From Dioscorea cayenensis subsp. rotundata (taxonomy: Eukaryota > Streptophyta > Magnoliopsida > Dioscoreales > Dioscoreaceae), in assembly GCF_009730915.1 (NCBI RefSeq), contig NW_024088559.1, positions 62,001 through 126,000 of the forward strand: a stretch of 64,000 bases of DNA, in the 5' to 3' direction. This document shows positions 32,885-64,000 of this stretch, one piece after another. The notes beneath the pieces were generated by a model that was not told where the DNA came from, made no database searches, and worked only from the letters and a program-made list of their open reading frames with translations. Numbering within the stretch: the first letter of the stretch is position 1; each line of letters begins with the position of its first letter. Both the position numbers and the translations under genes were made by a program.

Positions 32885-33334
32885 CACGTGTCCTAGCCCA
32901 ACCTTGCTAATAATAGCCACCCAACAGAGCCATGTTACCCTTCTCCCAATCCATCTATTCCACGTGTCCAAATTCTGGAACCACCCTTTTATTTCCTAAA
33001 AAAAGCCCGGTTCTCTTCTCTTCTCTCTCTCTCTCTCTCTCTCTCTCCTTTCATCATCATCATCATCTTCTTCTTCTTAAAAGCACTCAAAGAAAAGCCC
33101 ATCTCCCAACGCCCTCTTCTCTTCTCTCTTCTCTACTACGTGTTCACCCCTCACGTCCCTTTCTGGACACAACTCCAACTCTCATTGGTTACATCTCTCC
33201 TCTTTCCCGACACCCCAACCCCTCGTACGCACCAATCACGTGCTCTCTTCTCTCCTCTCCTTCCACGTGTCCTTTTTCACGTTCCATCACTGTCCTAGAT
33301 GCCCTTCTCGACACCTGTTCCCTTCTTCCACGTG
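32885..33334 (+). promoter_or_regulatory. G-box/ABRE-rich promoter and leader of the DUF7950 gene
   Basis: Five CACGTG hexamers lie upstream of the start codon at 32885, 32961, 33237, 33264 and 33329. Four of them sit in a CCACGTGTC context, a G-box with an ABRE core (ACGTGT) recognised by bZIP and bHLH factors. A CT microsatellite occupies 33022-33047. The density suggests ABA, light or stress control, which is an inference from the motifs. Confidence 0.65.
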
Positions 33335-33463
33335 TCAACCCATTCCTCTCTCTCCCCATTATTATATCACCCCCTCCTCCTTCTCTCCCTTATCTTCCTC
33401 GTTCCTCACCACCACCACCACCACCATCACCATCATCACTGCTTTCTCATTTCATTAACTCTC

Positions 33464-34321
33464 ATGGAGCGAAGAGGAGGTTGCTGCATAGTCAGGTATG
33501 GCGCTGAGCCTGATGTAGCTTGGAAAATGGATAGAATAATGTTAAGATTCCGTCCTATCGCACCAAAGCCCACGGTTGACGGTGCCGTCGCCGCTGCTGC
33601 TCCCGCTTTACCTCCGCCAAAAACCGGCCGGAAGAGACGAGGAAACCCTACTAGTACTAGCACTGGTGTTACTGCCAAGGATGGTGGTGGGAGAGGGAGG
33701 AAGGTGTTAAAGAAGGTGGAGAACCTTAACTTTAACCTGAAGACGTTGGCTTTGATGCCGGAGATGCCGGAGAGGAAGGAGGAGGTGAAGACTACGACGA
33801 CGACGACGACAGAGAAGAAGATGGTGACGACGTATGTGCCGGCGGTGTGGAGGGTGGGGATGGGGACGACGGGGGAGGTGGTGGTTCCGAGGCCGGTGAG
33901 GCCGGCGGGGTCGTGGGTGACGGTGGAGTGTGTGACGGACACGTGGAGGGAGGTCATTGGGTGGGGGTGCGAAGAAGAAGCTAGAAGAAGAGCGGTTATG
34001 GACACGTGTCCGGTTTTTTTATCTGGTCCGTTGGATCGGGTGACGTGGACCAACGAGGCGTATAGAAGGATGGTGGTTGGAGAAGATGATGGGGAGGAGG
34101 AGGAGGAGGAGGAGGAGGAGGAGGTTAGGGTGGCGTTGGTCACGCGAGGAATGGTACCGCAGGAGAGCATGGCTTTCACGTGCCGTGTGCGCGTGCGATA
34201 CGCGTGCAGGAAAGGGAAGGGGTCGTTGGCGGCTCCGTGTGATGTTTGGCGGCTCGGTGATGGCGTGCTGGCTTGGCGGCTTGATGTTAAGGCGGCTCTC
34301 AGTCTTAGCCTTGGGAGATGA
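33464..34321 (+). CDS. DUF7950-type plant protein of unknown function, intronless
   Basis: A single exon of 285 residues. It opens MERRGGCCIVRYGAEPDVAW and MDRIMLRFRPIAPKP, the conserved N-terminal signature of this plant family. The C-terminal domain has SWVTVECVTDTWREV, DTCPVFLSGPLDRVTWTNEA, FTCRVRVRYACRKGKG, and PCDVWRLGDGVLAWRLDVKA. The ending ALSLSLGR resembles an LxLxL (EAR-like) motif, raising a possible role in transcriptional repression. Between the domains are a basic patch (KTGRKRRG) and an acidic Glu run (about residues 206-222). No enzymatic motif is visible. The frame is open 165 bp upstream, but the conserved MERRGGCC start argues for 33464. The gene is much more GC-rich than its surroundings. 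Confidence 0.85.
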   Translation: MERRGGCCIVRYGAEPDVAWKMDRIMLRFRPIAPKPTVDGAVAAAAPALPPPKTGRKRRGNPTSTSTGVTAKDGGGRGRKVLKKVENLNFNLKTLALMPEMPERKEEVKTTTTTTTEKKMVTTYVPAVWRVGMGTTGEVVVPRPVRPAGSWVTVECVTDTWREVIGWGCEEEARRRAVMDTCPVFLSGPLDRVTWTNEAYRRMVVGEDDGEEEEEEEEEEVRVALVTRGMVPQESMAFTCRVRVRYACRKGKGSLAAPCDVWRLGDGVLAWRLDVKAALSLSLGR

Positions 34322-37788: not shown

Positions 37789-40700
37789 CTAGTTCTCAAA
37801 CATTCCCTCATCTGCCATCCTTGGAGATTCAGTGCCATTAACAAATGGTTTGTTCTCCGAGTCCGAAAGGGCATCACTTAGTATACTATAGATGATTTCA
37901 TCCTCATCCTCGTCCTCGTCGTCCTTGTCACCTTGATCAGAAACTTCCTTTTCTTCGACTTTTGGCATTGCTTTCTTCCGGGCTTCTCGACGCATTTTTT
38001 GCTTCATTGCCTCTTCATATGACATCTCATACCAAACAATACGATTTCCAACAATGGCCTTGTTGTGATTTTCAGTCTCTCTCTGCTGCCTGCTCTTTTC
38101 TGAGTTCTTCGGCTCACCCCAGTAGTCATAACGGTACAATGGGCTTGATGGATCATATTTGTCTTTCATAAATAGCCTCTCATCTATGTATCTTCCTGGT
38201 TCATCTAGTGGAAGTCCTAGAGCTTTCCGGCTGTCAAACATGCGAATTGATTTCCAAAATTCAATATTTCGACAAATGTATCAAGGGTTTCTAGAAAAAG
38301 AAACTGCATAAAGAAAATTCTTGATACAAAATATAGTTAGTTAGTCAAGGAAAAACAGAAACAAAGGTGTTTAGTGGTTGTAACAAAGTAGGTATTCATG
38401 ATAATTCAATTGTTGACCTGAGTTGAAGTAAAGTTCTAACTGTTCTACAGATGAAATAAAGTCTTGCTAGTATGCCAAACTCTTTGCTCACTATTAGCAG
38501 CCTATTTCTCAAACTGCTCCATCCTCAAGCTTCTCCATTCACCTTTCCACTCACCTTAGTCATATTCTTAAAAGTTTATGGAAATCTTTCATGCCACCAT
38601 CTTCCAAACTTATGAATTATGATGCTAACGTCAACATGCCAAGCTTACCAAATTACACTGTTATGTGCATATGCTCAAATCCACATGACATCCACTCAAT
38701 CTCAACTATATATATATATATATATATATTAAATCATTTGTTTCTTTTAAATTGTTCAGGCCATTCTGTTGGGCTACGCATGCCTCATAAAACCAGTAAC
38801 TTTGCGTTTGAATGAAGCGACAAGTTGCAATCCTTCATCTTAATGACAACAACAACAAGCATGCATTGTTTCCATAAACCCTGACTAGTAAATTATATAG
38901 TTTTTCTCACAATCAGTACTGTCTCAAACAACAAAATTAATGGTGTATATTTCACTCAAACAGATATACAAGCATTCCTCCTTCAAAAAGAGAAATGCAA
39001 GTTGATCATTAGTCAAATCAATGTATAGGAGTTTTTGGTAACCATGATTTCAGACACATGACTGCCATTCATAGAAACAGCTAATATCTTCGCCTTTGTT
39101 GAATTGTTCTCCATGATCATCATAAGAAGTGCTCAACTGTTTGTATAACTAGTGAGAAAATAACTAAGGAAATATATGCATGACCAAAACAACCATCAAT
39201 CTGCAGTCACCAGGTATCTTAATTTTCTCTGAGAAGGTAAGTGCTAAATTGATATATATATATATATAAATATATATCCATATATCTATGAAGAGCTTAG
39301 TAGGCAAACTTGAATTTCCATGGGATTATGGTATAGAATTTTTAAAAAAAAATTGCGTTAAAAGAGAGAAACAGATGTGCATTAGTTTAACCATGGTGAC
39401 AAAAGAAGACCAAATATATGAGATTGATCAGAAATGAAATTGTGATGATATTTAGAAAAAATGATAGTATGAAAATAAACACATCTACCTGCTAATATCT
39501 CTAATCAAAGCTTCTCTTTCTTCTAATGAACGTCGCCAATGCATCAGGTCATACTCATCCATTTCAATCATTCGTCTCAACTTTGGAAGTTTAAATTCTT
39601 CTCCTCTTTCATTTGCTTCCTTCTTTAATTTGTAAAGCATCTGTACTAAAAGAATCATTTAAAATTAAAGAAATCTCAGAATCACATCTATATGATTGTG
39701 CAAAATGGGGGAAAAAAAAAAAGACACCAAAAACCTCATGAGCGCTTATACAAACAGATATCCAAGACAAAATTGCCTCAATCTAAATCTTGGACAATGA
39801 TACAACATGTCAGATGCTAGTGTCCAAAATCATTAGTCCTATGTTTTAACCAATATTTTATCTTGGCAATGGTCATCAGTTATATAATCAAATTTTACCT
39901 TGCAAATAGAGCTTTCATTCAAAATCAAACTAAGATGCAATCACGCTTAAATATTATTATTGATATTGCTCATACAACTTACAAATAATTTCCTTTCCTT
40001 TTTATGCATCATACATATATGCACTTCAATGACACTCCAAGACATCAATGTACCAAATCAATTTACCACAATTTTCCTCATTATTCATTAAAAGTAGCAG
40101 TTGTAAATATTCACTTCACCAATAAAAACAGAGAACCATTCAAAAAGCTCCCATCAACACAAGGCCTAAGATGGTCTCGTAGCATGTTCGACATGTGTCA
40201 AGAGATAGTCTTCTCACCTTGAGCCTAGGCACCAACTTGCAAATGAAAAACCTTATCGATGATCCTAAACATGATCTTTGGCCCATAACATGCAGAAAGC
40301 TTCATTGCCAATGCGTGAATGACACATCACCTATGTGTGAAAACTTGACCTTTTATACAATAAATGCAATAAGCTCCCATCAATGCAATAGGTGACACGC
40401 TCATCGCACATGCACCCTTGCGAGGACACAACTGAAAGGTATTGAATTGTTGTCTCTAAGTTTGAAGGTTGGGATGTGGGAACTCAAGATAATTTGATTC
40501 TTAGTGCTTGCATCCTCGCCCTAAAATTTTTTTTTTGAGAGGAGAACGCTTAAGAAAATTAATTTGATATTGCAATCATATAAGACTTTTTCTAACTGGA
40601 GCAATTTCATGAATTTTTTTTTTCTTTGGAATCACTGAGGGAGTCAACGGAGTATTGGAAATCATGATCAAATTTATGTGGCACTGTCTTACCTGACGCT

Positions 40701-43700: not shown

Positions 43701-46030
43701 ATTTCAACAATTACACGCATGCCAACCTTTACATGATGGCGAATCCAGTACCAATCATTTCCTTTTATGGGAACCCATCTATAGATAAGAACAGATGAAT
43801 TAGTATACCAGAATCAGGAAAGTCAAACAATATGAGATATTCCCAGTGAGTTACCAGGTTTGATGGCAATGTTTGCACAACTTGCCAAATGGTACTTTTT
43901 GTCAAACTGAATTAGTTGTGCAGAAATTAAAGATTTTTTGGCATTGGGTAGGGGTAGAGAGCAGAAAAGTCACTAACGTTGAATGCCGAAATTGTCATGG
44001 AAGAATTTTTAATTTTCTCTGTGTACAACATCTTTCTCTACAGTTGTTGCTTTTCAAAAGTGTGCACACGCTCACACACACACAGGAAAAAAAATCCACT
44101 CTTTATTCATTCTTGTCTAGATGTGAAAATGCATTAGCTTTAGTTTAGTTTTCCACTTCCACCAATAAGGTTCAAATTGCATCAGTAATAAATTTATAAA
44201 ATGATCGCAGAAGGAAAAGCTGCATAGCTCAATAGATCTACAAAGAAAAAGGAGATTCACCCATCATAGACACCTCCAATGTCAACAAAGGCTCCTTGGT
44301 GAAGGTGCAGAGTTACCACCTTTCCCATGCAGACCTGCCATAATCCATTATCATATTAATCTTGCTAAGATTATGCAGTTTAATTGTAAAAATATGTTAC
44401 AACAGAAATTCTCGAGGCATTTGAAGGTGAAAAGCTTATAATTATAAGGAATTTAATAGAAGTTGATGACAATTCCGGAATAGATGAGAAGCTTACCTGC
44501 CCAGGGTAAAAAAAGGGAAGCTCAAGCTGCAAGAAAGACCATCATTCTTAGAAAAAAGAATTCACAAATAGATAAGTCAACAACATAAATGAAGAGAAAG
44601 AAGATAGCCACAAATATACCATGCCGTCTTTGTAGTCCTTGCCTCGTTTTCTCCTACCAGGATAATAATCTTGATCAAACTAAACCAAAAACAAACCAAA
44701 TTTAATCATCAGCCCCAAAGAAAAGTTAGAGATATACTCTTAGATATCTATATGAGAGAAAGAACTCCTAATCGCCTTATTGATATTCAAACAATAACAC
44801 AATGTAGCCATTCATATGCATTGACATTAGACTATAAGAGGAATGCGGCCATGGTGATTTAATCCAAAACAAGTTTTGGCATTGAACCCATAAGTGGCTG
44901 AATTTTTCATTTAATACACTTCTTATATGAAAATTGACACAACTTGATGGATAATGATTGTGAACTATTTCTATACAATGTTGATCAAAGAAAATTCCAA
45001 ATATAATTAGACATGGAAGGAATCATGCCATTTTCATTAAATCACAAGTATCTTTGATATCAACAATGCCCTGTAATCATGCTCACATATGGGTTCAATT
45101 CCAAAAATTGTTTTGGATTAAATCACCATGGCCGCACTCCTATAAAGCGATTAAGATCTTCAAGACTTCTCTTTCTCATAGATATGTAAGGGTATATTTC
45201 TAACTTTTCTTTTCAGATTTCAAGCTAAGCCAACAGAGATCATTGCAACATCAACAAACCAAACAAGAACAAAAAAAAAAAAGGATCTTTACCTTGTATG
45301 ACTCCTCCTCCAACCGATCTTTATTCGCTGCAACCCACTCATTGTACTGCTTCAAGAAAACCTTGTACCTATCCAAACACATAATTCCCACATCCGTATC
45401 CTTATCCACCCTCACTCCCTCCATCTTCTCAACATCAACCCTCTCAGCGAGCATCTTATGCGCCTCCCTAATAAACTCCAGCTCCTTCTTATCCACCTCC
45501 CATCCTCTGGGAGGCCAGTCCCTCGGCGGCACAAGCCGGGTCACCAAAGGCCCATCCCAAGAAGTCTCCAGTGGCTCCGGTATCTCTCCCTTAATCTCAA
45601 ACTGCTTCGCCTGGTATTCCTCCTCGGAGAGCCCGCTCTCCTCCATCTTCTTGCGGCGGTACGACGGAGTGAGCATCTTGTGAGCCTCGATGGCTTCAGG
45701 GGATTGAAGAGGGACTTCTTCGCCCTCATTGAGGGCTTTGCGAGCGAAATCAGCCTCCGGCGTGAGGATCTCCTCCCATGGAGCCCAGCCACGCTCGATC
45801 CAGTTCCGGCGGCGGGCCTCGTCCTCCGTTTCCTTCTCACGGGGTTTGAAGTCCTTGAGGAAATCCTCGTCGACGGGGTCCTCATCAGGAGCGTATGCAG
45901 AGGAAGTGGAGGAGGACCTGGGGAGGAGGCGAAGGGATCTCCATTCAACCGAGGGTTTGGAAGCTCGGAAGGGAGGAGAGAGGAAGCGAGGAAGGAGGCA
46001 ATGGTGGTGATGGAGCTGGAAGCAGTGCAT
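37789..46030 (-). CDS. PTAC10: Plastid transcriptionally active 10, S1-domain protein of the plastid RNA polymerase complex
   Basis: Twelve exons on the minus strand: 46030-45293, 44679-44620, 44526-44497, 44334-44261, 43778-43697, 43268-43195, 42859-42793, 41292-41200, 41009-40839, 40743-40693, 39640-39489 and 38230-37789. The joined frame is 677 residues; Arabidopsis PTAC10 is about 668. The N-terminus (to about residue 45) is a Ser/Arg/Pro-rich chloroplast transit peptide. An S1 RNA-binding fold lies at about 267-340 (VCMGKVVTLHLHQGAFVDIG, GWVPIKGNDWYWI). It is followed by LVDPNIDHLLFNRFDYPPIF and EELWRDCGRAPIPRRKPK. The C-terminus is acidic (DQGDKDDEDEDEDE). In Arabidopsis this PEP-associated protein is needed for plastid transcription and greening. 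I first considered HEMERA/PTAC12, but the S1 domain and length fit PTAC10. Confidence 0.93.
44725..45204. repeat. Fold-back element in PTAC10 intron 1
   Basis: The arms are inverted: 44725-44895 reads GTTAGAGATATACTCTTAGA and later GCGGCCATGGTGATTTAATC. The reverse complement of 45085-45204 reads GTTAGAAATATACCCTTACA and then the same GCGGCCATGGTGATTTAATC. The left arm has an extra stretch of about 45 bp (around 44785-44828). The loop is about 190 bp. It resembles a MITE or fold-back transposon; no clear target duplication was found. Confidence 0.7.
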
Positions 46031-47739
46031 GGTTTTTCACTGCATTGAGTTCTCTCTTGGGTTTTCTCAGGGGTTTAAGGAATGGAGAAGATAAGGGGTT
46101 GTTTTTTTTTTTTTTGCAAATATACCCCTGCAAAGCCAAATAATTGTATTTACATACCCAATAAAATATTTTTATTTGTTTATATATTTCAATAGTTAAA
46201 AATTAATATATAAACTTTATAAAGATATAGATTCATCTTTAATTATTTTTTTATATTTTCTAACACAAATAAAGAAAAAATAATAATAATAATATATATA
46301 TGATATATAATATTTTGTTATATATGTTTTTTTGTTAATATCAGGAAAAATTCATAATTTGTCCTTATTTATTCAAATAAAAAATATATATAATTTTTAT
46401 TGTGATTAAAGATGAAAATAACCAAAATGCTTAAATTCTAAATCAGTGTGCTAAGAAAAAGGCAGGGAATAGAGCCTTCAAAGAACTCATTGTGAGCATT
46501 AGGAGACAGTTCCTGAAAATTTTACAAAAAAATCCCTATTTCCTTTTTGCATTTTTAACCATTCTCATGACAATTTTTACACATTAAACCTTAAATTTTT
46601 ATTTATTTTCACAAATTTCATTTTTTTTTGCAACTAGACCCTCTAACTTTGTATTTTGCAATAAAACACCCAATTTTTCACTTTTAACATTATTTTATTA
46701 ATTTCGCATATAAACCACTGGATTTTTTTTTCATATTTTTACATTTTTATGAATTTTTTTTCAAATAACACCGAGCTTCTTATTTTTGAACTTTTTCTAT
46801 GAATTATTGCAAATGAACCCATTTTTTCTACTATTATTTTTTTAAAAATTTCAAATCTTGCAATTAAACCCTTAAACTCCCCTTTTCGAATTGTTGATTC
46901 AACATCTAACACTAAACTAAGCCCAGTTAATATAATCAAATATAATTAAGGGAACTAAGTTGGCATGATGTTGATGTGTTGTAAATGAGGACAGAAAATG
47001 ACTGATCACTAAGTATAGAGATATTCTTATGAGTATGATTTGTTAATGTATGATATATATATATATGACATCTTTAACTAGTCTAGAAAGTCATACAAGT
47101 ATTAGAACATGCACCCGGCCAACCCTGAATAAATATTCAACTTAGATTTATTTATTTATTTATTTATTTAATTATTTTGGAATAAATGTGGATAAACCAT
47201 AACTTTATTGAATAAAAGATAGACATGGAACATAAGATAAAAGCTCTCACCGGAAACTTGGATTTCTTTTCTCAGCTATCTTTATAATAATTATTTATTA
47301 TAGAATGATAAATATATATGACATGACAATATGATATAACTCAAATAATTTAAAGCCTTAAAGCACAACGGCAGGGTCACGCATGAATGCTTTTGATTTG
47401 TGTTCAAACCTATTTTTATCCGCTAATACATTGATTTGGAATGCACATTAATTGTAGTATTTGCTTGCCTAGTATTATGGTCATAGTCCTCAGTTGTTGT
47501 ACATATATGAGTAATTTTGAGATCTACCATGAGGTTTCAAGCTATGCAATTGCACCCAAGCACTATCCAGCAAGACTTATCAAATCATCTCATCCATGTT
47601 ATTGGCCATTCATTAGCAGGTGCAAAACTTAATTCACGTTTGATGTTCATGTGTGTATAAAAGAATGTTGCTCGCAAGCTTTTTGATTCTATGTTGTAGA
47701 TAAAAACTTTGTGAATATAAGGTCAAAGAACTTGTGGTA
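46031..47739. other. PTAC10 upstream region and AT-rich intergenic DNA
   Basis: This stretch includes the PTAC10 5' leader and promoter side. At about 46366-46446 lies a segment that recurs at 55360-55440. From 46520 to 46900 there are degenerate repeats around TTTGCAATTAAACCC-like phrases, suggesting decayed transposon sequence. No gene is seen. Confidence 0.45.
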
Positions 47740-47741
47740 TA

Positions 47742-48016
47742 CTTCTTCTGTTCCTTTTTATCTGTCATAAACTCATGTTTCTTTTTATCTGTCATTTTTT
47801 AACATTAAAAATTATTTATTTGTTTTTTTTCCAAAGTTACCCTAACACTATATTCAATTTTCTTCTTGAAATTTAATATGATAAAAAAATGTGAAGATAT
47901 AAATTAGGAGTAATTTTGGAAAAATAACTAATTTTTTATTAAATTATGTGAAATAACCAACTTTCTTAGTATGTGAGATTCGGTTATTTACGACAGATAA
48001 AAAAGAACGGAGAGAG
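47742..48016. mobile_element. Stowaway-type (Tc1/mariner) MITE, 275 bp
   Basis: The ends are CTTCTTCTGTTCCTTTTTAT (left) and, reverse-complemented, CTCTCTCCGTTCTTTTTTAT (right). Both match the canonical CTCCCTCCGTTCCTTTTT Stowaway terminus and run into ATCTGTC. TA dinucleotides flank both sides (47740-47741 and 48017-48018), the expected target duplication. The interior is AT-rich and non-coding. Confidence 0.85.
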
Positions 48017-48018
48017 TA

Positions 48019-49190
48019 TATTCTAAATGCATGATAAGGGGTAGAAAGAGAAAAAAAAAACAAAGGTGGTCAGTCGAGTAGGGTAATAGGGAATAAAACA
48101 TTTTACTTACTGTTGCAAAGAGATAATTGCATTGCATTTAAACTTCAAGAAAAGCGTGATTGGATTTAGAATGAGTAGAAGCTTGGGTTAAGTCTGTTCA
48201 TTCTAGGTCTCTAACCAATTAACTTCGTTTTACAAAGAACTCATGTCATGAAGGGTTTAAATAAAAGAGAGAGAGAAAGAGAAAGGTTCTGATTAATACT
48301 TAGTGGACAAATGAACCATAGATCATCTGGTGAAGACGTGATAAACATCTCAACAAGAGACGCATGAAGAAAAGGAAAGAATACCAACGAATTCAGAGGG
48401 AAAAAAAAAAGTATTTGAACAAAACATGCATGATTGTATGAAAAAAATGAACATGGCATATGCATACATATGGAACAGGGTCCACCAGAGATACATGCGC
48501 ATGTCATATAAGATTTACTGCATGTGAATATAACTGCAAAAATTATTCTTCCTTTAATCATGCATAATTTTTTTAAAAAAATAAAATAAATAAACCACAA
48601 ATTTATTGAAACAAGAAGAGTAAAGTCATGTATATTTCTTCATCCATATGTTTTTTTTTTCTCTATTTTTTTATTTCTATTTTTTCAGAGCACTATCAAC
48701 CAATAAGCTTTAGCCACATAGGAGAGTGAGATGTTAGGGTGACTTTTTCAACGTTGCAAAGTTAATCTACCATCACTAAAAAAATTTAGATTGACAGTAA
48801 CTCTGGTATGGGGTTAAATGGGATTTTGGGGTTACCCTTGTAACTCCGGTATCGGGGTTATTGATCCCCTAGATATATATATATAATTTTTTTTATATAT
48901 GTTCTTTCATGTAATGCAGTGATTATAGTTTTTATTTCAAAATAATATTATTCTAGTTATAATAATTTATAATTTTGTCAAAAAAAAAAAGAAATTTTTT
49001 ATTTAAATTAAATTTTAAAAAAATTATTAAATATTTATATATTTAATAAATAGTTTTATTAAATTATATTAATTATTTTAAGTTAAATTAAATTTTAAAT
49101 AAAATATTAAATAATTAGTAGTAAAAATGTTCTCACACAATATAGCCCAAATTAAACAACACACCCCTTTCTGATGACACTATACAGAGA
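48019..49190. other. AT-rich intergenic DNA, no gene seen
   Basis: The sequence is low-complexity with several T and A runs and no conserved peptide. The open frame at 48241-48600 on the minus strand is hydrophobic by composition only and has no homology I recognise. Confidence 0.5.
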
Positions 49191-49390
49191 TACATGCCCT
49201 TGTTCCCCACACCCACACTTATCTCATGACAGTTGACACACACCCTTGTTCTCCCACACCTATCTCATGACAGTTGATACACACCCTTGTTCTCCCACAC
49301 ACACACACACACCCACCTATCTCATGACATTTAATACATGCCCAAACAAAGGCATGCACAAGGTTGAACAAAGGCATGCACAAGGTGGTT
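49190..49390 (+). repeat. Tandem repeat array with CA microsatellite
   Basis: Three to four degenerate units contain CACACCCTTGTTCTCCCACA followed by CTATCTCATGACAGTTGA. They are followed by two copies of CAAAGGCATGCACAAGGT (49356-49387). A pure CA run lies at about 49297-49312. The array directly precedes the arogenate-dehydratase pseudogene. Confidence 0.7.
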
Positions 49391-49402
49391 CACACAACGG
49401 CG

Positions 49403-50130
49403 ATGGCAATGGCGGCCACTCGAGCTCCGTGAATCCACTCCACCCCTTCTTCAACCCACGAAGCTGAGAGAAGCTCCATCCAAGCTCCATCTAGTCTCTT
49501 TCTCAGACCTCGCCGGAAAGCTCTTGTCTCCGCTTTCGTTCGAGCCGGAGGAGCTGGCAGAGATGATAACCTCCTCAATAGCACTGGTTCCTCCAACGAT
49601 CTGAATCGTTCTTTTCTTGATTCTTCTTCTGAGTTTGCTTCCAAGGACCCTTCAACACTTCCTCATGAGCTATGATTATGGAAAATGGAGGCATTTGAGC
49701 CCCTTATCGTACTGTTCATACAGCTCTAATCTTTTTTATTTTATTTCATTTTGTATTTTCTTTTTAATTTTATTGATAATCTGTTGGTGTTTGATTTGAT
49801 AGTATCACTGTTTTAATGTGGTAATGTGCAAATGTGCTAACTGAATCTTAACTTCAGGTTTTCACTCAATGTGAGCATACCCTAGCAAAGTTAATTAGGA
49901 GTTGTTAATTAGAAAAAATGTGGATGATGCAGTTGGGGCTGCGAAGGTAAGATTCAGGTGTTACATTCCATTGCATCTGCATGCGCACCCAACACTAAAT
50001 CAATATATGTATCCTATAATGCAGTTTATTGCTGATAACAAGCTTGAAGATGCTGGTGCTGTTGCAAGTTCATTAGCAGCTGAACTCTATGGTTTAAACA
50101 TCTCGCCAGAGATATTCAGGCATGCTACAA
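49403..50130 (+). pseudogene. Arogenate (prephenate) dehydratase pseudogene fragment
   Basis: Two regions of an ADT-like gene are present on the plus strand. The 5' part (to about 49660) encodes a transit-peptide-like stretch with FVRAGGAGRDDNLLNSTGSS and ASKDPSTLPHEL, like the N-terminus of plant ADT1. After a gap, 49859-49947 encodes QCEHTLAKL, a stop, then VDDAVGAAK in another frame. It continues across a preserved intron into FIADNKLEDAGAVASSLAAE LYGLNI (50025 onward), the conserved end of the prephenate dehydratase domain. The middle exons and the ACT domain are absent and there are frame breaks. The retained intron indicates DNA-level copying, not retroposition. Confidence 0.7.
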
Positions 50131-50971
50131 TTTATTGCTAAAATTTGCTATAGCTAATACTGTATGTTCAACTAAATGCTGCTCATAACACCAATTCTTG
50201 CGCACGGAACGGCCTGGGACTTATGGGCTTAGCAATGAAGTTGGGCGTCAATTTAAGTATTGCAGACTTCTTATATGGATCCAAGTGCTAAATTTTATAT
50301 TTTTATTTAATTGTAGTACCCTAGTTTTGCTATATTTTAATTAAAAAATAAAAATAGTTTTGCTATATACGTATATATAATGTAAATTATCTTAATATTG
50401 GAAATATGTGCGCATGTTGAGAGTTGAGACTAACGCTATTAATGATGAGTTTGGATGAATCTTGTATGTAATCACTCTTGCTTTAGATGTTATATTAATT
50501 TGTTTTTTATATTTATTTTTGCATGTTTATCAATTTTGCTTCAATTGTAAGATTATGTTAAGTGAGCTGGTCAAAATGCTTTTTTAGAAAAAGATAAAAA
50601 TTAACCATATTTAATATGTTTTGATAAAGATAGTGTTCATTTCTAATCATGTTATATTTGGTGTTATGAAGCTCATTTCAAGGCAAAATACTAAATTGTT
50701 CAGCCTTCTCTCAGAGAGAAAGTGTTGAAGGGTCCTTGGAAGCAAACTCAGAAGAAGAATCAAGAGAAGAATATCGATGGAGGAACCAGAGCTATTGAAG
50801 AGGCTACCGTCTCCGCCAGCTCCTCCAGCTCGAACAAAAGCGGAGACAAAGGCTTTCCGGCGAGGTCTGAGAAAGAGCCTAGATTATGGAGCTTGGATGG
50901 GAGCTTCTCTCAGCTTCGAGGATTGGAGAGGTGGCGGAGTGGATCCACGTACGGAGCTCGATCGAGTGGCC
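49414..50971. repeat. Inverted repeat of the ADT first-exon region (arms about 250 bp)
   Basis: 49414-49660 and 50721-50971 are inverted copies. Shared blocks in the plus reading of the right arm include GAAGGGTCCTTGGAAGCAAA, AGCTCCTCCAGCTCGAACAA (GCTCGAACGAA in the left) and CTTTCCGGCGAGGTCTGAGA. Small indels and substitutions separate them. The spacer is about 1.06 kb and contains the dehydratase-domain fragment. A transcript across both arms would fold into a long hairpin. Confidence 0.8.
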
Positions 50972-51478
50972 CGGCGGTTGGACCGGTTAACCCGGTGACC
51001 CGGTGCTTAAACCGGTCCGGTTCTCTAATTAGACCGGTTATGCAATCAACCCGTTTTGACCCGTTTCGACCCGGTCAAACCCGGTGACCGGGTTTCTATA
51101 ACCCGGGCGGGTCAATAATTTTTTTTTAAATGACCTTGTCATACTTTGAAGTTTTTGATTTTTCTAATAAATTGAAGGGTATATATGTAATTTTGTAAAG
51201 TATGTATTTTTTTTTTTGTCCCTTTTCTACTACTTCCAAATAAGAGATGAATAATTATTTTTTTTATTTTTTCCATCAAATTATTTATTTGATAATTAAT
51301 AATTCATGAATATTATTATTATATATCATTATATAATTAAAATAATTTATAATTTTAAAAATAATATTTTAGTATATTTTTATTAACCCAGTATTGACTC
51401 GAATGACCCGACAGTTGAACCAATTGACCCGAGACCCAGAGCCCCGTCCGGGTTAATGACCAGGTTAAGTCTGATAAC
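50972..51478. mobile_element. CCGG-rich transposon remnant
   Basis: The left part (50972-51115) is dense in ACCGGTT and ACCCGGT motifs, the middle is AT-rich, and the right part (about 51388-51478) again has GACCCG motifs. It ends in CAGGTTAAGTCTGATAACTA. Its reverse complement TAGTTATCAGAC is a terminus type common in plant DNA transposons. The matching left terminus was not found, so the element is truncated or the ADT hairpin region lies inside it. Confidence 0.55.
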
Positions 51479-52335
51479 TATGCTTTAATTTCCCTGTTCG
51501 GGTTTTAAAGGGCCCCAGAAGGAGTGATTCCCACGGAATGGGGATCACTCATTTACTGAACAAGAGTTCAGGGAGAAATTAAGAATTGAGTCTAAATCCA
51601 ATTGTGCTCTCTTTGCTGTGAAGCTCAACAAGCTGCTTCTGCTGCTGCTGAAGATGCTGAATCTACTGCTTCGTTGCCTCAGATTGACATTAATGCTTGA
51701 TATATATATATATATATTATAATATTATATATTCTATATAGATAGTCATGAAAGCATGTGGAATTTTTAGTAATGACAGATCATGCAGGAACTGAAATTT
51801 GAAGCTCATATGCGTATTAATTTGTATTTGTGTTGTCTGATCTTCTTTTTGGGATGGTGTAACTAAAACAGTTTGTAAGCATGAGAATTAAGAAGGACAA
51901 CCAAGCAGTTGTGTGTCTTGCATGTCCAAAACTATATATGAAATGATAAAAAAAAAACCCATTTACATCTTGGTATGCTGTATATTAATTATTAGGTTCT
52001 GTGATCATTTTCTGTGTTGATGAGTTCTTATCTGAAGTTTCCTTGTTTAATTTACTTCAGTATATTTTTTATTATATTTAAGTTTTTGTTTATATTAAAT
52101 ATAATATAAATAATTTTAATTTTTAAATTATATTTATTTATTAATTTATGTAATAAATATTCATGAGAATTTTTAAAATCAAGATATGCTTCCATTGTAA
52201 AAAGTTATTTAATCAGAGTGTTAGAGTTTTTATTTTATGTCATGCGGAGCAAAGGAATTTACTTGCTATACATGGTTAATGCATACTGCTAAAAATGATA
52301 TATACAATAAGAATTTATGTATTGACAAATCTTAA
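51479..52335. other. Intergenic DNA, no supported gene
   Basis: A short GC-richer piece at 51590-51692 could encode a Ser/Ala-rich peptide ending QIDINA before a TGA. It has no conserved partner I recognise and no credible upstream exon. The rest is AT-rich. Confidence 0.4.
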
Positions 52336-54904: not shown

Positions 54905-55442
54905 CTATGCCAGTCTCTTTGGTCACTATTAGCAGCCTACTTCTCAAACTGTTCCATCCTCAAGCTCCTTCATTTACTTTTACACCATCTTATGTTATAT
55001 TCTTAAAGGTTTTTGAAAATCTTTCATGCCACAATATTCCAAGCTTATGATGACCCTGATCTTTGACCCATGACATGCAGAAAGCTTCATTGCCGTTGTG
55101 TGAAAACTTGACCTTTTATACAATAAATCAATATGTGACGCTCGTGGGCCATGTACACTTGTGAGGACACAACTGAAAGGTATTGCATTGTTGTCTCTAA
55201 GTTTGAAGGTTGGTATGTGGGTGATAATCACTATATGGAAACTAGAGATCAAGAGGAACAACTTTGGTATTCAAAGAAAAATTTAAAACCCACTCTATTT
55301 CTCTTGAAAATTCACACAAGCTCACACTTCATATATATCCAGAAAAAAAAAAACATTAACATGTTTAAATAAAAAAATATATATAATTTTTGTTATGATT
55401 AAGATTGAGGATAACCAAAATGCTTAAATCCTAAATCATGGA
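54905..55442 (+). repeat. Shrunken copy of non-coding segments from the PTAC10 locus
   Basis: Three blocks in order match three separate places in the PTAC10 locus on the same strand. 54910-55050 matches 38480-38630 (CACTATTAGCAGCCTA, CATTCTTAAA-type text). 55050-55225 matches 40262-40483 (CATGCAGAAAGCTTCATTGC, GTTGTCTCTAAGTTTGAAGG). 55360-55440 matches 46366-46446 (AACCAAAATGCTTAAAT). The PTAC10 exons between are missing. Confidence 0.65.
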
Positions 55443-60462: not shown

Positions 60463-61286
60463 AGGGATAAATTTTAATAGACAAGATTAATATATAACCT
60501 TAAAGTATAGTACTTACCCAAACAACACTCCTAGAAAAGAATAAAGCCAGATCTTGCATGAAATGGGGCCTTTCCTTCCTATAGTATGAAAAAAAAAAAG
60601 ATTTTCAGACTATAATTAATTACTTCCAAATGGGATAAGTTTTTTTAAATCAAAACAATAAATGAAAAATTCATATAAAAAAAAAATAAAACACATGAAA
60701 AACTAAAAACCTTTCAACAAAGAATGCGCCGCGGCGAAGATATTTCTATATATGACCAGAATGAGAAGGCAAAATCACATATAAGAAGACAGGCCGCAGT
60801 AGTTAAGTCCCACACATCCAAACTAGTATTTATAAACAATGAGCAAAAGAGAGGTAGCTAGCTAAGTACATGCACAGTGTATGTCCCAACTAATTAAGAA
60901 GAGGGTGAGAAAGATGCTCAAGATTTCATGCAACCAATGTGGCTAACAATAAAACTTTAAAATATAAAAAAATTAAAATGATTTTCATAATTTTAAAATT
61001 TATTCATAAAGATGATGATGATGATTTTTTTTATAATTTCAAAAATAAATATTTTGAATTTACAATGATATATATACTAATATTATATAAAAATGTATAT
61101 ATATATGATTAATATTTTAATCATATATTTCATTTTTACAAAAAAAAAAAAGAAGGAACAATACTACACGCATGCATGAACAACCTCTCAATTAAACAGG
61201 TAAACCATGGCATTTGCATGAGATTTATTAGAGTTTAATTATTTATTCTAGAAAAGAGAAGAAAGATCATACCGCATGCATGTATG
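60463..61286. other. AT-rich intergenic DNA
   Basis: No gene is seen. There is a GAT triplet run at about 61011-61024 and TA runs near 61097-61106. A phrase near 61165-61200 (GCATGCATGAACAACC) recurs at about 61273-61293, a small local repeat. Confidence 0.45.
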
Positions 61287-61536
61287 AACAACCCTTTAAT
61301 TAAACAGTAAAGAGTTTCTTTCTTCTTTCCCTCCTTCTAGAAACAACCTTTTATTTGATTTAAACTTATGTATAATAATTTGATTTATTAATAAATAGGA
61401 GTAAATATAATGTTTATAAGGGGGTTTCTGAGTCAAATCTTAAAACGTGAAAACCCTAATAACGAGGATGGGAAGGGTTGAGGAGCGAGAGATGGAGAAC
61501 GGGAACCATGAAATCCCTGAAAACGTCAACGGAGGT
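61287..61536 (+). pseudogene. Duplicated upstream region and first exon of NBP35
   Basis: This block repeats the NBP35 leader and exon 1 about 570-750 bp upstream of the real one. Shared text includes TTCTTTCCCTCCTTCTAGAA, AATAAATAGGAGTAAATATA, CAAATCTTAAAACGTGAAAA and AGCGAGAGATGGAGAACGGG. The copy encodes MENGNHEIPENVNG. Its exon ends AACGGAGGTAAAT, so a donor-like AG|GTAAAT is present, but no exon 2 copy follows before the real gene. The real copy carries extra material between the two matching blocks. Confidence 0.8.
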
Positions 61537-62258
61537 AAATTTGGATAAGTTCACCTCATCATTCAATTAGCAAAATCACCAACATCTTAATAAATATAAA
61601 AACATCAACCATGCCAAAGAAGTATATATATATATATATATATACTAGTGTTATAGCCGTACTATGCACACCCCATAGATAATATAAATCAATATTTTGA
61701 AATCCAATTTGGCTTGATCAGTTTGACCTGATTCGACTAAACTTGATCATATCTTTAGGTTAGATCATATAAAAATCAACACAAAAAATTAGCTCGGATG
61801 ACTCCATCGAATACCCGTTGAATTGGTCAACGGTCATTCAATTAGCAAAGATCATAAGAACAACCTTTTAATTAAACAGGTAAGAGTTTTTTTCTTCTTT
61901 CCCTCCTTCTAGAAACAACCTTTTTATTTTAATCAATAATTTATTATATTCCACAAAAGAAGTAATACAATGCCTAATTTCTTTTTTAAGGTAATATTAG
62001 CTTATATTAGGTGTATTATAACATAAATATATTTATAAATATTATATTATATAATTATAAATTAAAAAAAAAGTTAAGGAGTTTTAATAAAAATAATAAA
62101 AGATGTGAGATAAATTTAAACTTATGTATAAAAATTTGATTTATTAATAAATAGGAGTAAATATAATGTTTTATAAGGGGGTTTCCGAAAATAATCTAGT
62201 CAAATCTTAAAACGTGAAAACCCTAATATCAAGAATGGGAAGGGCTGAGGAGCGAGAG

Positions 62259-64000
62259 ATGGAGAACGGGAACCATGAGATCCCTGAAAATGCCAACGAA
62301 CGTGAGATTTCTCTCTCTTAGAACCCTAAATCTCTTTTGGCTGTTTAAATTCATACTTTTCTCTGTTTTTTTCTTATTTTTTGTGATTTTTTTTCCAATT
62401 TTTTTGTTGTTAGATTGCCCGGGGCCGCAGTCGGAGTCGGCGGGGAAGTCAGACGCGTGCGCGGGGTGCCCTAACCAAGAAGCATGTGCCTCTGCACCGA
62501 AAGGACCTGATCCTGGTACTCTTTGCTTGTTCTTCTTTGAATTTGAGAAGGAAAACCCTTGTTTTTCTGTTTAGTTTCTCTTGTTTTCATTGGAAGCTTT
62601 GGGTTTTTTTACTTCTTTGTTGCTTCCTTTTGAGTTGATTGAACTTGATATGCTAATTTTGTTTGAGTTGTTTGTTATCTTGCCTAATGATTGTTTATGC
62701 CCTTCCTTTATGCGCTTTAGTAACTTCCATTCATTTTCTCGTTTTTAAATGAAATTATCGACTGATATAGGATAAAGAACTGTTTTCTTGTTAGATAGTG
62801 AATAAAAGTGATAAAAAAGGAGTGATTTTGGGATATATATATATATATATATATATATTTCAGATTGCCACTTCAGAATTCATGATGTTGTGGATTTTGT
62901 TTATGTAGAATAGTTTTTCTGTACAATTTTTAATGGAAATATATGTTTTATAAATAAAAAACCATACATAAAAATACCGTGATTCCCATGGATTGATATA
63001 AACCGTGACGTGGATTGATTGTGGGGGACCTTCCAGTTTACTTTCAAATCCCTTGATATCATCAATTTTATTGTTGAGCTTGTTATAATGCTTGGTTTAT
63101 TTGGTAGTTATTAGTTACTAAGTACGCGATAGTTATTAGTTAGCACTTAGCAACCTTTTGTGACACCTAGTTGGGAGCAGAAAAACTTGAAACTAAATGC
63201 AATCTATATGTTTTTCTTTAGCTTGAACACCTAAAAATATTTTCAGGATTTAATTTATTATTTACTGTCAAGAGCAAACAGAAGGTGTCTTGTCCAGTAA
63301 CCTTTAACAGAACTTGAACTTTTCTCCCAAAAGTTATGAACGGAGCCTTTCACATGGACTTGCTTTGACACTAATAAGCATGCTTTGTGAAGTTATATAT
63401 GCTCATAGAAAAGCTGTATCTTTTTGAGATGTTTGAGTGATCTCATACATAAGTAAATGATCTTTTGTTTTTTTTGTTTTTTTTAACTACCTGAAGGAAA
63501 GCTTGTTTGCATATAGTGAGATGGTAACTAAGATTGTGGGGGATATCTAGAACTAATCTTGGATGGAACTTATTGAATCTGCTGCTTTGAAGGAATTTAG
63601 TTACTTTTTAGTATGAAGAAGGTGATGAGGGAGTTGATGTTAGATTATTAACAAGGGTGGTGGTGTTATGGTTAATAGTTTTGGATCATATACTTTTTGT
63701 CTTGTGTTTGCCTAATTTACGATGGAATTGGTACTATGAGTCTTGGAACTGGGATGTTGAGTGTGGATTTAAATTATATTAAAGAATGCAAGGAATTATA
63801 TTTTGTCAGGATATGTATATGCTGATGCCAGTCTTCCTCAACCTAAGCATTATAATGTATCATGCCATTAAAGTTTGCACGAGAGACAATTTCCAAGTCA
63901 TATGTATTTAATATGAAACTAGATCTATATGTTAGCATACTTATTTTAGTTCCTCATATAGAAAAGTTGGCTGGGTCGTTCACTGTTGAAACCATAGATT
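62259..64000 (+). CDS. NBP35: Cytosolic Fe-S cluster assembly factor NBP35, 5' part only
   Basis: Two exons are present: 62259-62301 and 62414-62515. The gene runs off the window. The protein begins MENGNHEIPENANEHCPGPQ and continues SESAGKSDACAGCPNQEACA and SAPKGPDP. The spacing C-x13-C-x2-C-x5-C is the N-terminal [4Fe-4S] site of NBP35 proteins. The P-loop ATPase part (GKGGVGKS) is not in the window, so the rest must lie beyond 64000 after a long second intron (62516 onward), which shows only AT-rich DNA and a TA run at 62834-62859. An in-frame ATG at 62235 would add eight residues (MGRAEERE); I prefer 62259 because plant homologues start MENG. It acts as a scaffold for cytosolic and nuclear Fe-S proteins. 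Confidence 0.92.

Follow-up and report, generated by a model that had tools for sequence, protein, structure and literature searches.

GmIRCHS of soybean, which consists of an inverted repeat of a CHS pseudogene, is described as a candidate inducer of CHS silencing (PMC13051633; PMC6710647), and deletions involving GmIRCHS are reported to restore pigment (PMC13051633). Its arms are 1,087 bp long, lie 78 bp apart and are fused to a DnaJ promoter. Inverted repeats of PISTILLATA exon 1 on the W of Salix and of ARR17 on the Y of Populus have been proposed as siRNA sources; both systems are sex-linked, and S. herbacea has seven pairs (PMC13064059). Here, a locus at 49403-50971 of a 64-kb stretch of DNA (the window, C2163:62001-126000, on a 233-kb contig) was analyzed against the window's own genome, which comprises 584,211,761 bases in 2249 contigs. 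The initial annotation had described an arogenate dehydratase fragment with an inverted copy of its own first exon, and had proposed a natural hairpin locus. The locus is most likely a relic, an active silencing locus being a minority reading.

By homology and by the presence of a PDT domain, the locus at 49403-50971 belongs to the arogenate/prephenate dehydratase (ADT) genes. Once hand-joined over an intron and a frameshift, the peptide of the middle part passed the curated cut-off for PF00800 (PDT), with E = 1.6e-6; pseudogene exon 6 alone scored only E = 0.042, and an unspliced six-frame Pfam scan of the locus returned no family in any of the six frames. Against solved structures, the middle peptide retrieved four sequences at E ≤ 1, the top match being a flagellin-type protein (0.0017, with no single stretch passing), after which three prephenate dehydratases rank. 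Taken alone, Pfam would lend modest support to ADT identity. At the level of sequence homology, that identity is settled by the genome, since a single gene on C7 aligns with the locus at 83-92%, and exons 1-8 of that gene, hand-joined, score E = 2.1e-62 for PDT. The genome search with 49403-50971 gave 13 matches from seven candidates, all scored, of which three fell within the locus, four on C7:29126155-29128894, three on C3 and three on C553. The ADT origin claimed initially is thereby borne out. Whether any ADT gene of this genome matches the arms had been set beforehand as one point on which the hairpin proposal would fall, and one gene, that on C7, matches both.

The C7 gene, referred to below as the parent, is apparently intact and contains introns. 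Its exons 1-8, joined by hand, are free of stops, the last exons lying outside the model, and the lone TAG counted in its PF00800 match sits in the intron preceding exon 4. An intact homologous target gene elsewhere in the genome, as expected of a hairpin locus, is thus present as far as exons 1-8 are read. A PF00800 search of the genome produced 13 matches (19 of 19 candidates scored), the intron-split ones being located on C7, C8, and C15; the C8 and C15 paralogues gave no match to C7 exon 1 at E = 0.01. No other copy of ADT exon 1 was found in the window, or in the genome beyond the locus and the parent, all seven candidates being scored. Further copies of the arms and ADT pieces were not found in the 64-kb window, and no known RNA family reached the gathering score there. 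Intronless long PDT frames (L014-L021 and L025), some of them short, were also observed on several contigs; they may be intronless ADTs or bacterial contamination of the assembly.

Table 1. Features in and around the inverted-repeat locus, in window coordinates.
Feature	Position	Strand	Basis
Copy of DNA ~80-150 bp upstream of the C7 ADT gene ATG	48681..48751	+	83% over 71 bp
Repeat within the ADT-like upstream region	48838..49128	.	Repeat family (40 of 191 candidates scored), with nearly all matching sequence in query 199-489
Pseudogene exon 1, intron 1 and 38-bp intron-2 piece, without exon 2	49382..49787	+	84% over 377 columns, plus 34/38 bp, to parent
Left arm of inverted repeat (exon 1)	49414..49664	+	Arm alignment
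End of intron 4, frameshifted exon 5, part of intron 5, exon 6, start of intron 6	49789..50183	+	83% and 92% blocks to parent
Loop segment, resembling DNA upstream of a CDK5RAP3-like gene on C3 (0.2-0.7 kb from its first matched reading frame)	50228..50690	.	Genome search with all five candidates scored
Right arm, inverted exon 1 only	50716..50971	-	Arm alignment and parent match
hAT-like MITE without its first 21 bases, 3' end present	50968..51482	.	Among 40 of 328 genome candidates scored, own copy included

The left part of the locus, 48681-50183, is a DNA-level partial copy of the C7 gene that retains an upstream piece, exon 1, intron 1, part of intron 2, the end of intron 4, and exons 5 and 6. 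The ADT derivation noted initially therefore holds, and its extent is longer than had been noted, taking in the three parent-like stretches of Table 1. The blocks that match the parent are 48681-48751 (upstream), 49382-49750, 49750-49787 (within intron 2), 49789-50008, and 49998-50183. In the upstream region, about 630 bp at the locus correspond to about 60 bp in the parent, and the extra DNA includes a repeat family. Parts of introns 1, 2, 4, 5, and 6 align at the positions that they occupy in the parent, as in an unprocessed pseudogene. Since the introns are kept, the left part was copied from DNA, and an origin from spliced mRNA was rejected. For the same reason, the "retained intron" of the initial annotation is an ordinary genomic intron. 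Exon 2 was lost through a small deletion of about 90 bp, and exons 3 and 4 through a deletion of about 1.8 kb before 49789. Furthermore, a tryptophan codon has become a premature stop (TGG to TGA), the intron-1 donor is broken (GT to AT), and exon 5 carries extra bases that shift the frame. The locus thus lacks the intact frame with a catalytic domain of a functional ADT gene. The stop codon, the exon-5 frameshift, the broken donor and the missing exons 2-4 rule out a coding function and exclude an enzyme.

The arms form the best of four inverted pairs of at least 60 nt reported for the window, the remaining three being 70-72% matches in sequence of 82-91% A+T. Aligned as 49414-49664 against 50971-50716, they are identical in 223 of 263 columns, with 19 gap columns and 21 mismatches, and the score of 327 far exceeds the maximum of 27 in 200 mononucleotide shuffles, which confirms the inverted copy of the first exon. 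In the pairwise alignment they differ at 21 of 244 positions and by six gaps. The right arm spans parent exon 1 from just past the start codon to its last base, and similarity stops at the exon-1/intron-1 boundary, the exon end being inferred by joining the reading frame by hand. Relative to both the left arm and the parent, it has 4, 4, 1, and 3 extra bases and 7 missing, and its frame is broken. Retention of the ancestral frame in the right arm, as suggested by the two arms alone, was contradicted by the parent sequence. An imperfect palindrome of about 300 bp at 44839-45141 (70% over 328 columns) is a second foldback candidate in the window.

The pair constitutes a long inverted repeat able to fold, as is characteristic of natural hairpin siRNA loci. 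For the plus strand (1569 bases), the predicted fold is -639 kcal/mol with 228 arm-to-arm pairs, compared with -388 ± 13 in eight mononucleotide shuffles; for the minus strand it is -621 with 234 arm-to-arm pairs, compared with -340 ± 10. The capacity to form a hairpin, as initially proposed, is supported by these predictions. Perfect pairing between the arms is longest over stretches of 46 and 26 bp. Exact identity with the parent extends to 30 nt in the left arm and 32 nt in the right, at the same place, and 30 nt of the 46-bp pairing also match the parent. The left arm has 10 exact 21-mers in common with parent exon 1 and the right arm 12, while 111 of 231 and 79 of 236, respectively, lie within two mismatches of it. 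Any siRNAs made from the arms could thus reach the parent, mostly via one short stretch.

The loop segment is a diverged copy of CDK5RAP3-upstream DNA, with 62.6% identity over 494 columns to L011 and 80% over 250 to L010, and three pieces of three match the CDK5RAP3 Pfam family (E 1.8e-21 to 2.6e-11). Between this segment and the inner side of the right arm lie about 26 bp of unexplained sequence. On its outer side, the arm meets the interior of the MITE at a GGCC present in both sequences. This MITE is one of a common family. Of its copies, 13 of 14 others run about 21 bases further to a CATAGTTATTAAACC-like terminus, two having a changed base in the first seven, the right end is GATAACTATG-like in 11 of the 14, and exact 8-base direct repeats, recognized by eye, edge three copies (L033, L038, and L042). 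The initial annotation had placed a CCGG-rich transposon remnant at the right arm and considered transposon-mediated capture plausible. The former stands insofar as an element does adjoin the arm, namely this MITE with its left end missing. Capture by it was rejected: the absence of the 21 terminal bases and the junction at the common GGCC indicate that the arm was not carried inside the element but lies outside it, on the side where its end is missing, whereas a fragment captured by a Pack-type hAT MITE lies between both terminal inverted repeats.

Divergence from the parent was computed block by block. Left-to-parent K2P is 0.104 ± 0.019 in introns (31 of 320 sites), 0.135 ± 0.024 in exon 1 (31/256), 0.154 ± 0.046 in exon 5 (11/81), and 0.032 ± 0.019 in exon 6 (3/95), and the arm-to-arm value is 0.093 ± 0.020. 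Exon 6 (50025-50119) is thus far closer to the parent than the rest of the copy, which differs by 10-14%. Substitution rates of 0.65-1.3e-8 per site and year give about 4-7 million years for arm-to-arm divergence and about 4-8 million for the left-to-parent introns. The inverted copy is therefore roughly as old as the duplication, and with two values so similar the clock cannot order duplication and inversion. Among private changes, the left arm shows 10 nonsynonymous and 2 synonymous and the right arm 10 and 4 (4 and 1 of these in misaligned end columns), so that no synonymous excess was found in either arm. The arm differences are scattered over codon positions. With this spread, and with a divergence similar to that between pseudogene introns and parent, the sequence gives no sign of selection for arm pairing. 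Most polarized changes, 9 of the 12 in the left arm and 6 of the right arm's 9, are C>T or G>A. By context, 11 of these 15 are CHH and 4 are CG, where 81 CHH, 30 CG, and 17 CHG sites were available; a test of the arms for methylation-type decay accordingly revealed no CG/CHG bias.

An allelic or empty site was not found, and relatives of the neighboring DNA on C20 and C18 end before the locus in the stretches fetched. A gene at ~37.8-46.0 kb resembles what we take to be a plastid pTAC10-like protein, and its 5' region is duplicated in part on C18, at 96%. At 54906-55438, pieces of 38471-38615, 40272-40480, and 46372-46445 recur together as short copies. A highly repeated element occupies 47740-48020, matched by 42 of the 48 rows returned (84-91%) among 40 of 1364 candidates scored. 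Elsewhere in the window, neighboring segments at 61283-62303 are directly duplicated at 89-93%, and an open frame at 33299-34321 with DUF7950 (E 6.9e-41) lies in a G+C-rich, strongly skewed stretch.

On balance, the locus is a non-coding partial ADT pseudogene whose inverted exon 1 was probably made by repair, and it probably decays neutrally and has no regulatory role today. The C7 gene was duplicated at the DNA level, and deletions and insertions later fragmented the copy. About 1 kb downstream, exon 1 is present a second time in inverted orientation, probably placed there as a templated patch in error-prone break repair, with the neighboring pseudogene or the parent as template, and both arms would since have decayed neutrally. 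The single parent gene, the kept introns, the disabling changes, the similar arm-to-arm and intron K2P, and the lack of a synonymous excess argue for a relic. The right arm is flanked by unrelated pieces, the CDK5RAP3-upstream DNA and the truncated MITE, and we infer repair from this composite anatomy together with GGCC at one junction and the 26 bp at the other. Against a relic, it should be noted that the right arm begins beside the start codon and ends at the exon-1 boundary, which is neater than random repair need be and recalls the Salix exon-1 inverted repeats; that the 46- and 26-bp pairings survive free of mismatches; and that exon 6 is so little diverged. The last may reflect gene conversion, a recent patch or chance, and is left unexplained even by neutral decay. 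As for the template, the right arm may have been copied from the C7 gene or its mRNA and not from the neighboring left arm, a real possibility that we nevertheless hold to be short of even. Its stop at the exon boundary would suit this, as would its identity to the parent (211/244), close to that of the left arm (220/251), and an arm-to-arm divergence indistinguishable from that of the left-to-parent introns. The arms are, on the other hand, closest to each other (217/244 in the three-way alignment and 223/244 in the pairwise one). Across the three-way alignment, the parent stands alone at 18 sites, the left arm at 12 and the right arm at 14, five of the right-arm sites being in misaligned end columns. 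Once those five are dropped, this pattern mildly favors the left arm as the template of the right (p = 0.066 against equal branches). An mRNA template is further opposed by the lack of exon 2 after the arm, unlike in a cDNA.

Readings in which the hairpin acts depend on its being transcribed. By computation, a transcript across all of 49.4-51.0 kb would fold into an imperfect hairpin whose stem is about 250 bp and whose loop is 1 kb. Dicer could process it to siRNAs that match exon 1 of the functional gene, perfectly over some 30 nt at most. Were the transcript produced at a low level and diced to 24-nt siRNAs, these might methylate the locus alone and leave the parent unregulated. The hairpin capacity and the preponderance of C>T and G>A changes fit such self-methylation, which is nonetheless unlikely: the changes are not concentrated in CG or CHG, and an excess of C>T is also usual for neutral plant mutation. 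Were siRNAs instead to lower C7 ADT expression, and so phenylalanine supply, the locus would be an active natural hairpin. The strength of the predicted fold, the exact 21-mers in both arms and the GmIRCHS precedent (PMC13051633) speak for this, and the interruption of the ADT upstream copy by a repeat, the lack of any sign of selection on pairing, and a loop of about 1 kb compared with the 78 bp given for GmIRCHS speak against it, so that it appears distinctly improbable. More speculative still, with a very slim chance of being correct, is a young lineage-specific hairpin arising from repair-driven inversion of exon 1 that tunes ADT, and with it the entry of phenylalanine into lignin and other phenylpropanoids, via the 30-nt stretch 49615-49644. 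A different origin, in which a Helitron, Pack-type or hAT element gathered the fragments and inserted them together, is very improbable. Two unrelated gene-derived fragments (ADT as on C7, CDK5RAP3-upstream as on C3) do stand beside a MITE, but the arm lies outside that MITE, whose end on the arm side is lost, and no second composite copy was found in the genome, the seven candidates of seven scored giving only the locus, the parent, and pieces on C3 and C553. For a Helitron, a hairpin with a CTRRT end, in the pattern used, was not found in 46-54 kb on either strand, although a diverged or more distant end could escape such a search.

The locus provides, as it stands, a readable example of the raw material for hairpin silencing loci, in which arms, loop and parent are all identified. 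Were it active, it would act as an RNA switch at the gateway to phenylalanine synthesis and be a case intermediate between repair scar and silencing gene. Ordinary DNA-level plant pseudogenes with repair rearrangements share its kept introns, disabling mutations, deletions, junction bases and patchwork; the inserted piece here is the inverted exon 1 itself, and nothing else tested clearly differs. Typical MIRNA precursor loops are far shorter than the present one. The inverted gene duplications regarded as proto-MIRNAs in the inverted duplication model (PMC3237417) resemble it in being inverted gene-fragment duplicates able to target the parent. By analogy, the kind of locus is already known from GmIRCHS in soybean and from the exon-1 inverted repeats in Salix. 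The Salix and Populus repeats are likewise inverted partial copies of one gene, exon 1 in the case of PISTILLATA; here there is one pair on a 233-kb contig, for which a sex link is not known. GmIRCHS is alike in being an inverted repeat of a pseudogene fragment derived from a metabolic gene, functional relatives of which lie elsewhere, whereas the present arms are about 250 bp long, 9% diverged with indels, and about 1.05 kb apart.
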